A stretch of 64,000 bases of DNA, from NCBI GenBank assembly GCA_012719855.1, contig JAAXZN010000058.1, positions 62,001 through 126,000 of the forward strand, written 5' to 3'. Positions 1 through 4,131 of the stretch are shown here, in pieces (position 1 is the stretch's first letter; each line of letters starts with the position of its first letter). This stretch comes from Serratia liquefaciens. GTDB taxonomy: Bacteria > Pseudomonadota > Gammaproteobacteria > Enterobacterales > Enterobacteriaceae. The notes under the pieces are model-generated. The model was not told the origin of the DNA. It worked only from the letters and a program-made list of their open reading frames with translations, and searched no databases. A program made the position numbers and the translations under genes.

Positions 1-1177
1 CTGCTGATGTGTTTACTCCCTCTATTATTGATGATGTAGATATGATGTTTCTTATTCCATCTTGCTCCTCGAATAATTTCACTTGAATTTGGCTTAATGA
101 CCTATGTAGTCTACCATTATGAATTCCTGTGCCTTTCTTTATTAACTTTGTTAATTTCCAATTCTTATCATAATTAACGCAAAGCCATTTTGAAAAATTA
201 TCAAGTAAAATACTTTCTTTTATTTCAGTATTCAATGTAATTATTTCAGAAACGATTTCTATATCCTTGTAAGTCCCTGCGTATATTAAAGTCTTCCCTG
301 TGTTTTTTGATATGACATCCAGCAAGGCTGTTTTTTTCTTGTCTTTGTCTTCGCAAATATCTCGATATAATTCGTATTTTTCCAGGAAAACAGTATTGAA
401 ATCAATATGAATGAATTCCATTCCCTTTGTAAATGGATTATCTTTCAGGTTTGAAATGTTAGGAGATAAAAAATATCGCTGCTTAGCCTTCTTGCTTAAT
501 TTCAAAATTGCATTTAGTAATGATGGGGATCTCTCTTTGTCAAACTTATCACTGGCTTTGTAAAATTCGTCGACAATTAATATATCTAAATTTTCTATTT
601 TATCAATATAACCGAAAGATCTTTCCTGAGGAAATATAAATATATTTTTTTCCGAAAGTTCGACATCAGATGTGGTTATTATTTTATATTTGTCTGAAAA
701 TTTTTTTTGCAGTCTTCTCCGTGTTTCATCTGTCAAGGCAATCGTGGGGACAATGATCACAACATTTTGTGGATTTCTTAAGGAAATAAAGGCATCTATG
801 ATAAAGCTCTTCCCAAAACTCGTTGGGGCACTTATAGCCAGGCTTTCACCGTTAATAAGTTTTTTAAGAAGTAATGATTGTTCACGATGTAATGTGACGG
901 GAAAACTAAGACCTACATCTACCTTAAAGGCATTATAAATATATCTTTCTTGCCAAGAAGATGAGTCGATCTTTAAATAAGGATATAACCCAAGCTTCCT
1001 AATTAAATGATTAACTAATTCATTATAAGAAATGTTATTCTTATCAAAATAATCAAGAAGTCTAACTAAATTATTTCTTGCGTCAACCTCTTCTCCTTTA
1101 GAGATTAACTCATTAATATCATGACATCTATTGAATATGATATTATCCATGGCTTCATTTTCGAGTGATTTTTCCAT
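1..1177 (-). CDS. hamB: HamB-type helicase of a Hachiman defence system (partial, runs off left edge)
   Basis: The first 392 codons of a superfamily 2 helicase; the C-terminal part lies outside the window. The start is the ATG at 1177, preceded by a clear AAAGGAG ribosome site. Visible motifs: a Walker A-like SAPTSFGKSF at about residues 116-125, motif II VDEFYKASD at about 202-210, and IISTSSIIEGVN just before the edge, typical of the helicase RecA-2 domain. It lies 119 bp downstream of hamA on the same strand, the normal Hachiman order. In characterised Hachiman systems HamB is a DNA helicase that holds the HamA nuclease inactive until phage DNA intermediates are sensed. Base composition is strongly AT-rich, unlike the backbone to the right. 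The family call rests on the neighbour and on motif layout; the frame is open from the ATG to the edge. Confidence 0.85.
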   Translation of the reverse strand, partial: MEKSLENEAMDNIIFNRCHDINELISKGEEVDARNNLVRLLDYFDKNNISYNELVNHLIRKLGLYPYLKIDSSSWQERYIYNAFKVDVGLSFPVTLHREQSLLLKKLINGESLAISAPTSFGKSFIIDAFISLRNPQNVVIIVPTIALTDETRRRLQKKFSDKYKIITTSDVELSEKNIFIFPQERSFGYIDKIENLDILIVDEFYKASDKFDKERSPSLLNAILKLSKKAKQRYFLSPNISNLKDNPFTKGMEFIHIDFNTVFLEKYELYRDICEDKDKKKTALLDVISKNTGKTLIYAGTYKDIEIVSEIITLNTEIKESILLDNFSKWLCVNYDKNWKLTKLIKKGTGIHNGRLHRSLSQIQVKLFEEQDGIRNIISTSSIIEGVNTSA

Positions 1178-1296
1178 GTGTTAATCTCCTTTAAATGAGT
1201 GAACCCGCTTCACAAACGATTCAATGATTGATTTTTTTTCTGGGACAGGAAATAAAATTAAATGGAATTTTATAGATGAGTAATTAAAAATAGATC

Positions 1297-2097
1297 CTAT
1301 GTTTTTTTCTGTTTTTTAAAATAAGACGCTGCTCTTTCTTTGTGATATTCCATTATACTATTTCTATATTCATCGCTTAGACAGTCTGTTTCTTTTGTTA
1401 TTTTGCATTCATGTAATATAAATATAGGGACGTGTATCTTTGGTTTGAGGTTATCAATGGAGTTTTGATTTGATAGCGCTTTTTTTATCTTCTCCCTTAA
1501 CTCGGCATCTAGTATAAGTGTGTCAAGGTCAGATACGTTTGAGATTATACTGTTCTCTTTTCTTAATTTATCGCTTATTAGAGAATTTCCAACTGATTTA
1601 ATTATACTGTTTAACCTATCGTCATTAATGCTATTATAAAATTTTGCTTCTCCAAACCAAAGGGAAAAATCACCGTCATTTATAACAATATGAACACTGT
1701 CTGCACCCTTTGCGTTATCTTGAGAATTTTGTTTGTAAAATATCTTAGGTACAACTGGTAACGCATTATAATGCTTTTTCATTATGCCATAGAGAACAAT
1801 CTCTGCTAATTCACTACCTTTACTGATATCATCTTTATCGGAATCGGTTAGCCTTAGGTTTTGTGCGGCTGTCGCAAGTAAGGTATATGGATCACTTGAA
1901 AGACTGTTGCGTTCTTTGTGAGACAATGAAGTTTCTGCAATATTATCCCATATAAAATTTTGGAATTTCTTATATCTCCAATCACCATCTTCAAAATCAT
2001 TTATTAAGCCTAAAATACTCTTATTTTCGTAATTAATTGAGTCATGCTCAATATAGAATGATGTAAACATATCCTCAATGACAATGTCAAAATCCAT
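1297..2097 (-). CDS. hamA: HamA nuclease (DUF1837) of a Hachiman defence system
   Basis: A 266-residue protein of the DUF1837/HamA family, the effector nuclease of Hachiman. It keeps the family's conserved blocks: GSELAEIVLYG near residues 94-104, a VVPKIFYKQ strand, then KGADSVHIV (Asp133) and LWFGEAKFY (Glu150, Lys152). Together the last two form a D...E-x-K arrangement expected of a PD-(D/E)xK nuclease, so the active site looks intact. In known systems HamA with HamB degrades DNA after infection and aborts phage growth. The ATG follows a GAGGGTT ribosome site, and a TATAAT box lies 52 bp upstream of it. Codon and base use are AT-rich like hamB and unlike the chromosome, indicating horizontal transfer. 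Confidence 0.88.
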   Translation of the reverse strand: MDFDIVIEDMFTSFYIEHDSINYENKSILGLINDFEDGDWRYKKFQNFIWDNIAETSLSHKERNSLSSDPYTLLATAAQNLRLTDSDKDDISKGSELAEIVLYGIMKKHYNALPVVPKIFYKQNSQDNAKGADSVHIVINDGDFSLWFGEAKFYNSINDDRLNSIIKSVGNSLISDKLRKENSIISNVSDLDTLILDAELREKIKKALSNQNSIDNLKPKIHVPIFILHECKITKETDCLSDEYRNSIMEYHKERAASYFKKQKKT

Positions 2098-2148
2098 TCA
2101 CGTAACCCTCAATCCTGCACGTTGCCAATGAAATATTATTAGCAATAG

Positions 2149-2177
2149 ATTATACCAACATAGCGAGTTAGTTATAA
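2149..2177 (-). promoter_or_regulatory. Probable hamA promoter
   Basis: On the minus strand a perfect TATAAT (2149-2154) is preceded, with a 17-bp spacer, by a weak -35 TTATAA (2172-2177). The start would fall about 45 bp upstream of the hamA ATG. The -10 is convincing and the -35 poor. Confidence 0.5.
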
Positions 2178-2212
2178 TTAAACGCAACTCGATGCCCGAT
2201 GGAACTAAATCT

Positions 2213-2227
2213 ACCATTGGTAATGGT
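2213..2227. repeat. 15-bp palindrome upstream of hamA promoter
   Basis: ACCATT-GGT-AATGGT, a perfect 6-3-6 inverted repeat about 60 bp upstream of the hamA -10 box. The position and symmetry would suit a repressor or activator site, but no regulator gene is visible in this part of the island. Confidence 0.35.
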
Positions 2228-2270
2228 GCAGATTCAATAAGGATATGTTAATTACTACATTCATATACAT

Positions 2271-2302
2271 AAAAACACCTGTTAATATAATCAGGTGTTT
2301 TT
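2271..2302. terminator. Bidirectional terminator downstream of the integrase
   Basis: An 11-bp stem, AAAAACACCTG pairing with CAGGTGTTTTT around a 10-nt AT-only loop. T-runs are present on both strands. It lies 80 bp beyond the integrase stop and insulates hamA from integrase transcription. Confidence 0.75.
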
Positions 2303-2381
2303 ATATCAGTGTTTATTTAAACAGTACAATAATGCCTATAATTATTATTTAATCGGTAATAATATAAAATGTTAGCTTTAT

Positions 2382-3575
2382 TTATTTTATTTCAAGAATC
2401 CTCATCCCCCACCAACCCATCAAATCAAGTCGTTGTTCAAGGTATGTTGATCTGTTGTATGCTCGCCTCACCTCATTTTTATCACTATGGGCTAGAGCAG
2501 CCTCTATTACATCGGCATTAAATCCAGCTTCATTCATCGCTGTGCTTGCGATAGAACGTAGTCCATGAGCAACTAGTTTCCCACCATAACCAATCCGTTT
2601 TAGTGCGGCGTTCGCAGTCTGACTATTCATCGGTTTTCGCGGGTCGTTCCGGCTAGGGAATACATACTCACGGTTGCCGCTTATAGGTCGCATAATTTCG
2701 AGTATCTCTAGAGCTTGATCTGAGAGTGGGACGATATGTTCACGTTTAGCCTTCATTCGCTCCGCCGGGATATGCCACTCACGGTTTTCAATATCGATCT
2801 CGCTCCAAGCGGTTGATGAGGCTTCGGCGGGGCGAATTAACGTCAGCAACTGCCAATTAAGTAAACAACGGGTGGGTATCGATAGATTGCTCATCGAGAT
2901 AGTATGCATTAGCTTAGGCAGCTCTTCGGGTCGTATAGTCGGCATATGTTGCTTCTTAGGCCGTTCGAATGCGTTACCAATACCAGAGGCCGGGTTAGCA
3001 TCAATCAACCCGGTGTTGACGGCGAAGATCATGATTTCGTTGATGCGTTGCACTAATCGGCGAACGGTCTCTAATGCGCCCCGAGCTTTGATCGGCTCCA
3101 ACACTTGGATCAGTAAACGCGCCTTAATGTCCTGAACTGGGATATTCTCGATAGATGGCAGTATGTCCTTTTCAAGAGAACGCCAGATGTCTTCAGCATG
3201 CTTAGCGCTGACGCTGGCCTGTTTCAATGCGAACCATTGCTTTGCCACGTTCAGGAAAATGCTTTCTTGAGCTATCTGCTGCTGTTCCGCTTCTGCTGCC
3301 TCTTTAGCCTGTGGATCAATACCTCTTGCTAGTATCGCGAGTTTTTCGGCACGTATTTGCCGGGCATCGGCAAGTGACAGGGCAGGGTAGGCACCGAGGC
3401 TAACCATAGTCCGTGAACTGGTGCCGGGGCGGAGGTAGCGGAAGCGCCACAATTTCTTGCCGGTGGTTTTGACTAACAGGAATAGGCCATCACCGTCGTG
3501 TAGGGTGAGGTCTTTCTCTAGGGCTTTGGCTTTTTGTACTTCGGTATGTGTGAGGGGGCGTGTAGTCCGCGCCAT
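2382..3575 (-). CDS. int: Tyrosine recombinase (P4-type integrase) of an ssrA-integrated island
   Basis: A phage P4/CP4-57-like integrase of about 397 residues. The N-terminal DUF4102 arm-binding domain (TEVQKAKALEKDLTLHDGDGLFLLV) precedes a catalytic domain with the expected tyrosine recombinase residues: Arg in LLTLIRPAEAS, the HGLRS box (H-x-x-R), a histidine in ALAHSDKNEVRRAY and a nucleophile Tyr in the same segment. I place the start at the ATG at 3575 (MARTTRPLTH); an in-frame upstream ATG at 3617 would overlap the 10-bp repeats and adds a tail not typical of the family. It faces away from ssrA, with its promoter between the two, the usual arrangement for elements using the tmRNA 3' end as attachment site. 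It probably integrates and excises the island carrying hamAB. Confidence 0.9.
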   Translation of the reverse strand: MARTTRPLTHTEVQKAKALEKDLTLHDGDGLFLLVKTTGKKLWRFRYLRPGTSSRTMVSLGAYPALSLADARQIRAEKLAILARGIDPQAKEAAEAEQQQIAQESIFLNVAKQWFALKQASVSAKHAEDIWRSLEKDILPSIENIPVQDIKARLLIQVLEPIKARGALETVRRLVQRINEIMIFAVNTGLIDANPASGIGNAFERPKKQHMPTIRPEELPKLMHTISMSNLSIPTRCLLNWQLLTLIRPAEASSTAWSEIDIENREWHIPAERMKAKREHIVPLSDQALEILEIMRPISGNREYVFPSRNDPRKPMNSQTANAALKRIGYGGKLVAHGLRSIASTAMNEAGFNADVIEAALAHSDKNEVRRAYNRSTYLEQRLDLMGWWGMRILEIK

Positions 3576-3595
3576 GTAAGGATTCTTCCATAATT

Positions 3596-3642
3596 GGTAT
3601 ACGTTTATGGCATACATTTTAACGTATACCTAAACGTATACC
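3596..3642. repeat. Three copies of a 10-bp repeat in the integrase promoter region
   Basis: AACGTATACC occurs as two direct copies (3621-3630 and 3633-3642, 12 bp apart) and once inverted as GGTATACGTT (3596-3605). The cluster lies just upstream of the integrase start. Such short repeats between int and att commonly act as arm-type integrase sites or as operators for an excisionase/regulator; which one cannot be told from sequence. Confidence 0.55.
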
Positions 3643-3688
3643 AATAAATCCCGGATTTAGCTGGATGTTCTCGGACTGCTACAGACAC

Positions 3689-3722
3689 AAAAAAGCCCGC
3701 AAACCTAGGTGGTATGCGGGCT
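3689..3722 (-). terminator. Terminator following ssrA
   Basis: On the minus strand an 8-bp GC-rich stem (AGCCCGCA with TGCGGGCT) with a 13-nt loop is followed by TTTTTT. It sits 46 bp beyond the tmRNA 3' end. Being on the element side of the attachment site, it would be supplied by the island rather than by the original chromosome. Confidence 0.7.
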
Positions 3723-3767
3723 TTCCGTACTTCTCCGGACTTATCTGGTAATACCCGGATCATTATT

Positions 3768-3806
3768 TGGTGGAGCTGGGGGGATTTGAACCCCCGTCCG
3801 AAATTA
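3768..3806 (-). other. Probable island attachment site (3' end of ssrA)
   Basis: The tmRNA T-arm and acceptor end form the junction between AT-rich island DNA and backbone. Integrases of this type recombine within this segment and leave a direct repeat of it at the far end of the island. The second copy is not in this window, so the exact crossover limits are unknown. Confidence 0.6.
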
Positions 3807-4131
3807 CTACACCGTCGGCACTACATGCTTAGTCCAATCTTTACATTCGCCGGTCAGCTGCGGATGGACACGCCACTAACAAACTAGCCTGATTGGATTT
3901 AACGCTTCAGCCCCAGGCAGGACATCCACGCGATCTCTTTTGGGTTTGACCTCTCTTGATCCCCGTCCTAAGAGCGGAGGCTAGGGAGAGAGGGCTCTTA
4001 GCAGGGTATTAAGCTGCTAGGGCGTAGTTTTCGTCGTTTGCGACTATTTTTTTGCGGCTTTTTACGAGGCCAACCGCCCCTCGGCATGCTCCTAGGGCTT
4101 CGCAAATCCCGTCGAATCCAGAATCAGCCCC
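3768..4131 (-). ncRNA. ssrA: tmRNA (10Sa RNA)
   Basis: A 364-nt RNA that rescues stalled ribosomes by acting as tRNA-Ala and mRNA. The 5' end reads GGGGCTGATTCTGGATTCGA and the 3' end ...AGCTCCACCA, so the acceptor stem and encoded CCA are complete. The internal tag frame encodes ANDENYALAA followed by TAA, identical to the E. coli tag. The rest aligns closely with E. coli tmRNA as I know it. smpB, its protein partner, is immediately upstream. The 3' end also serves as attachment site of the island to the left and has been restored by the insertion. Confidence 0.97.

Follow-up and report, generated by a model that had tools for sequence, protein, structure and literature searches.

Hachiman has been characterized most closely in Escherichia coli (structures 8VX9 and 8ZUE). 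According to the accessible parts of Tuck et al. (2024, PMC12278908), HamB of the intact E. coli system patrols DNA and restrains HamA, and when a free 3' single-stranded end sets HamB in motion, the HamA nuclease is switched on and destroys both phage and host DNA. The same parts of that paper describe HamB as two RecA domains, WH* and CAH parts and a C-terminal OB-like fold, with N-terminal helices that bind HamA, and report that defence is abolished by deletion of HamA or HamB or by active-site changes. Antiviral systems are also known as cargo of P4-like phage satellites, in which, in E. coli, the int-psu slot is a hotspot for them (Rousset et al. 2022, PMC9122126, in the text available). 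Here we describe hamA and hamB genes at the left end of a 64,000-nucleotide stretch of a Serratia liquefaciens genome (the window). They are the cargo of a P4-like phage satellite, roughly 11.8 kb long, at the 3' end of ssrA, the gene for transfer-messenger RNA (tmRNA). Judged from sequence, this Hachiman cargo has very probably been inactivated recently, by loss of the reading frame in hamA and by a nonsense codon in hamB.

hamA and hamB are both interrupted

Window positions 1-64000 correspond to C52:62001-126000 of genome G000 (5.46 Mb, 70 contigs), and a further 20 kb to the left (L007) was read and is given in contig coordinates (C52). The first part of the window was analyzed by open reading frame (ORF) listing, ARAGORN, base composition, and PADLOC and Pfam profile scans. 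The ORF listing held three long leftward ORFs within window 2-3617. The Hachiman genes are arranged as follows (aa, amino acids).

Window 1297-2097, minus strand: hamA ORF, 266 aa (PF08878, PADLOC HamA)
Window 1303-1181, minus strand: conserved HamA C-terminus, 40 codons plus stop, in another reading frame
C52:61048-63177, minus strand: hamB, whole gene, about 709 codons with one internal stop
Window 1-1177, minus strand: 5' part of hamB, 392 of the 463 codons ahead of the stop, the remainder lying left of the window

The 266-aa ORF matched PF08878 (DUF1837) at 195 bits (expectation value, E, 1.9e-57; Pfam cut-off 25 bits) and the best PADLOC HamA profile at 420.7 bits. Its nuclease residues D133, E150 and K152 (D + E-x-K, here E150-A-K152) are kept, in columns that are 99% conserved among 82 homologues. 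The adjoining gene encodes the HamB helicase core (PF00270, 43 bits, cut-off 26), and its window part reached 512.3 bits with the best PADLOC HamB profile and matched 8zue_B at E 3.7e-45. The pair thus resembles E. coli Hachiman in placing a HamA of the D + E-x-K nuclease family beside a HamB helicase, and differs from it in that the C-terminus of hamA is out of frame and hamB is interrupted. An earlier sequence-only reading had named the 266-aa protein as HamA and its neighbour as a superfamily 2 helicase, HamB. Both identities held, with the DUF1837 match present and the helicase assigned to HamB, but the 266-aa ORF is not the whole of HamA and hamB has a stop after codon 463.

The hamA ORF is about 40 codons shorter than its homologues, its PADLOC match covers profile positions 4-267 of 308, and no single frame encodes a full-length HamA. 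The remaining C-terminus, with its conserved residues, lies in another frame and ends just before the hamB start at 1177. A-rich runs are found at the break. As a reference we used 83 homologous HamA loci, namely the best 80 of 113 from a genome scan, two of three from a viral scan and one from a genus search (the remote matches L091, L093 and L094 were excluded, and L092 is the same record as L054). For the C-terminus to be scored as in frame, the ORF had to be closed, and either the C-terminal match shared its frame or the ORF extended at least 30 codons more. By this measure it was in frame in 83 of 83 loci and the hamA break occurred in none. Conservation was compared across 82 HamA and 71 HamB homologues and the window copy, the HamA row of L062 being without a value in part. 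The lost part of HamA contains nine columns conserved at 95% or more, and among all HamA columns at this level one differs in the window copy (position 30).

Structural information came from the intact HamA of locus L089 (IMG/VR UViG_2675903390_000002), which is 64% identical to the window HamA. In its AlphaFold2 model (mean predicted local distance difference test score, pLDDT, 75.9), the part missing from the window copy forms a strand and a helix with block mean pLDDT of 76 to 91. The chains 8zue_A and 8vx9_A were the only matches to this model at E of 0.001 or below and were each 13% identical to it over the structural alignment, marking a divergent HamA group. VIA-align of the model with solved Hachiman chains gave aligned ranges ending at residues 302, 305 and 293 (range ends only). 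On this model, the fold of the window HamA is predicted to be without its C-terminal strand and helix.

In hamB, which has about 709 codons, one in-frame stop (C52:61786-61788, beyond the left edge of the window) follows codon 463. Past it, an open stretch matches the HamB C-terminus, so that the gene is split into a 463-aa ORF (614 bits with PADLOC HamB) and a 230-aa C-terminal ORF (131 bits), with no full-length HamB in one frame. Among 78 loci with both parts matched, 75 had both halves in one ORF at the stop junction. Of the three exceptions, L058 and L063 show a frame change further upstream and L036 a stray second match, with the contig ending soon after the first. Disruptions of hamB were also seen in L034, L041 and L050, the last near the same place but by unrelated sequence. 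Decay of hamB therefore occurs in other genomes too, and the hamA break is unique to this one. The HamB comparison has 140 columns with conservation of at least 97%, 13 of them beyond the stop, and the window copy differs at two of the 140. The stop is placed after the helicase core by chain order, not by a structure of this HamB, and the C-terminal domains would be lost with it.

Could the system nevertheless work as found? HamA minus its last 40 residues and the 463-aa HamB helicase core would then have to suffice, and the D/E-x-K residues, the helicase core and the N-terminal helical region of HamB, which binds HamA according to the available text of PMC12278908, are all present. The missing parts make this highly improbable. 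In HamA they include the nine conserved columns, kept in frame at every homologous locus, and in HamB, by chain order, the WH*, CAH and OB parts, of which WH* and CAH likely form the DNA-binding cleft (PMC12278908, as far as its accessible text goes). With a HamA deprived of its C-terminal strand and helix and a HamB ending after the helicase core, this copy probably gives no Hachiman defence. The locus had earlier been described as an anti-phage system, a description that its present state does not support, both genes carrying disrupting lesions.

Age and reality of the two lesions

The kept nuclease residues, together with the little decay past the breaks, make the damage look recent. Relative identity past the two breaks was 0.826 (family median 0.880) and 0.741 (median 0.762), within the range of family divergence and slightly below the median (20th of 83 and 21st of 72, counted from the lowest). 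Such values point to recent lesions, or to continued use of the parts past the breaks. No near-identical second copy of hamAB was found in the GTDB collection or in the genus and family genomes.

The conserved sequence past the lesions, together with the position of the hamA frame loss beside A-rich runs, a classic error site, is also what sequencing or assembly errors in a genome with an intact system would produce. We consider such errors unlikely. Comparison of window 4734-64000 with another genome of the same species (G007) gave 59,268 aligned bases at 98.7% identity with six insertions or deletions (indels), none of them inside the 47 crude ORFs (at least 150 codons, 54,310 coding bases), hamAB lying outside the aligned stretch. 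Moreover, one in-frame codon makes up the hamB stop, which is thus no run-length error, and it is unlikely that adjacent genes were each hit by an independent error.

The breaks may alternatively be regulatory, with slippage at the A-rich stretch of hamA giving full-length HamA in small amounts, or that stretch varying from cell to cell, and HamB made in two pieces by restart past the stop. Besides the A-rich runs and the little decay past the breaks, this would fit an ATG 15 codons past the hamB stop, which has a purine-rich stretch ahead of it, and the mild toxicity of Hachiman expression reported in the accessible part of PMC12278908 would be a reason to keep its level low. No conserved device is apparent, since the hamA break is in none of the 83 loci and the hamB stop in none of those that could be judged, and relative identity past the breaks is slightly lowered, which together render regulatory breaks very unlikely. 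Likewise very unlikely is a phase-variable or two-piece Hachiman kept low or switchable by the satellite, in which HamA would be completed only by slippage or a length change of the A-rich stretch and HamB would consist of two chains split between the core and the C-terminal domains.

Several observations weigh against recent inactivation. The comparison with G007, our measure of assembly quality, excludes the hamAB stretch. The lesions are seen in one genome, and the sole genome of the same species compared (G007) is without hamAB. Furthermore, the breaks fall at domain edges with hardly any decay past them, as expected if both parts were still made, and the ATG past the hamB stop may allow a HamB in two pieces.

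The surrounding element and its insertion site

We still favor a recently inactivated Hachiman cargo, and the element that carries it is a P4-like phage satellite. The order of its genes is integrase, hamA, hamB, Ogr/Delta, Psu/Sid-family, AlpA and alpha-type primase, and its features other than hamAB are listed here.

Window 3768-4131, minus strand: ssrA (tmRNA), the integration target (ARAGORN; tag ANDENYALAA)
Window 3633-3790: right attachment region, element-type sequence beside the ssrA 3' tail
Window 2382-3617, minus strand: tyrosine integrase, 411 aa (PF00589 120 bits, PF13356, PF22022)
C52:60506-60760: Ogr/Delta zinc finger (PF04606, 68 bits)
C52:59721-60509: Psu/Sid-family (Psu-like) protein (phrog_6165)
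C52:58959-59219: AlpA (PF05930, 73 bits)
C52:58166-58720: repressor-like ORF (phrog_6928)
C52:57571-57909: DUF5375 protein
C52:55225-57558: alpha-type primase, 777 aa (phrog_2249, 583 bits)
C52:54075-54770 (L007:12075-12770): 231-aa ORF without family

The integrase adjoins the 3' end of ssrA, as had been read from the sequence. It reached 591 bits with NCBIfam NF007246 (cut-off 434), and its description as P4-type would be a label taken from the context of the element. The primase scored 103.8 bits with TIGR01613 (NCBIfam, P4 family primase), just below the cut-off of 108.7. In genome G006 the chromosomal DNA found here to the left of the element continues directly into ssrA, representing the unoccupied site. 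In G000, ssrA itself is now followed by element-type sequence, and its native downstream flank (C52:53842-53945) follows a degenerate ssrA tail copy instead. From this displacement and the unoccupied site in G006 we place the satellite at approximately C52:53945-65767 (11.8 kb). The right attachment region has a degenerate partner at C52:53796-53945, and its terminator part occurs also at C52:51893-51956. An integrase-like match beside ssrA was found in 14 of 30 genomes of the genus, this genome and short and partial matches counted.

Between two ssrA-terminator copies further left lies a remnant of about 1.9 kb (C52:51957-53841, L007:9957-11841). It contains an alcohol dehydrogenase-like gene as well as sequence resembling the upstream region of the integrase, and was probably left by an older insertion at ssrA.

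As in the P4-like satellites described in the accessible parts of PMC9122126 and PMC8628076, the element encodes an integrase, an alpha-type primase, AlpA, Ogr/Delta and a Psu/Sid gene, and cargo varies in the segment that separates the integrase from the delta/psu-like end. In contrast to those satellites, it sits at ssrA, carries Hachiman as cargo and yielded a single Psu/Sid-family ORF (phrog_6165). This Psu-like ORF may be a Sid, since a Serratia/Yersinia satellite clade appears in the Sid tree and is absent from the Psu tree in the parts of de Sousa and Rocha (2021, PMC8628076) available.

Scans with Pfam, PHROG, PADLOC and NCBIfam gave no match for the 231-aa ORF at the left end of the satellite, a sequence search of solved structures gave nothing convincing (one match at E 0.98), and an IMG/VR scan gave no confirmed relative. 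The ORF was matched in six of 392 sampled family genomes including this one, the five others being 51-55% identical, and the alpha-type primase was also matched near its relative in two of these five loci (about 1.5 kb of flank each).

The sequence-only reading had pictured an AT-rich mobile defence island with further cargo, possibly further systems, to the left, reaching to a second ssrA 3'-end repeat. The content of guanine and cytosine is 31.4% in hamAB, 49.2% in the integrase and 54.9% in the rest of the satellite, with 50.7% and 51.7% in the two flanks. The AT-richness is thus real but confined to the hamAB cargo, and we rejected a generic AT-rich defence island. The mobile element at ssrA stands, as a P4-like satellite with hamAB in a known cargo slot. 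The second repeat exists, in degenerate form (C52:53842-53945), and more of the element does lie to the left, as P4-like backbone. No known further defence system was detected left of hamAB by PADLOC in the two ORFs scanned (the 231-aa and the Psu/Sid-like ORF).

Cargo slot in related satellites

The satellite backbone is common to G000 and G007 up to C52:61010 and again from C52:64443, and the cargo between differs. The slot holds hamB and hamA in G000 and an ORF of the AIPR family (393 aa, PF10592) in G007. In the G007 slot (L125:2972-4656) the AIPR ORF is overlapped by a 181-aa ORF without family, and the AIPR-family cargo may be broken as well. The neighbouring Psu-like and alpha pieces appear truncated. 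Next to this first stretch at ssrA of G007 lies a second (L125:8093-10235), in which a bacteriocin-like gene encoding a Colicin E5 ribonuclease domain is accompanied by an immunity gene, ImmE5.

A close counterpart is L089, which is similarly P4-like, with the order int, hamA, hamB, Psu-like and alpha. Unlike in the window, both its hamA (305 aa) and its hamB (719 aa) are whole. The word 'Hachiman' is absent from the main text of PMC9122126 as far as it was available (supplements lay outside the search), and a literature search returned no report combining Serratia, Hachiman and P4-like satellites.

Distribution of the HamA group

Within the genus and family, HamA of this group is rarely seen. 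Matches at E of 0.001 or below were found in 4 of 30 genomes of the genus, two of them close (this genome and G009), and matches at E of 1e-60 or below in 2 of 392 sampled family genomes, this one included. The GTDB collection contains 113 stretches coding for a HamA relative. The best 80 share 56-70% identity and, going by their titles, belong to several phyla. S. marcescens MSU97 (L054/L092, 65% identical) is another Serratia that carries HamA of this group, with an open HamB frame of 708 codons and an integrase-like match within the locus. No HamA match was found among phage records, and among plasmids three Rhizobium records matched at E of 1e-30 or below.

In E. coli, some of window 1-3767 was matched in 1444 of 5426 genomes, in none over 80% of that stretch. 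The four top-listed genomes carry hamAB-like DNA. In the first of these, a KwaB-like gene adjoins hamAB and genes for type VI secretion are close by, an arrangement seen in E. coli SC407 (L134:11028-15715). Save for an integrase at one end, the 26 kb listed for this first locus included nothing P4-like.

Implications

The Hachiman genes of this satellite could have been inactivated upon release from selection or because their loss would bring relief from the cost of the system. For surveys of defence systems the locus calls for caution. PADLOC scores both genes above 400 bits although both are disrupted, and a count of 'Hachiman present' is misleading here, since strong profile scores hide two lesions. 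In the P4-like satellites compared, Hachiman is cargo of a slot, broken here and whole in L089, and the same slot of G007 holds AIPR-family cargo.

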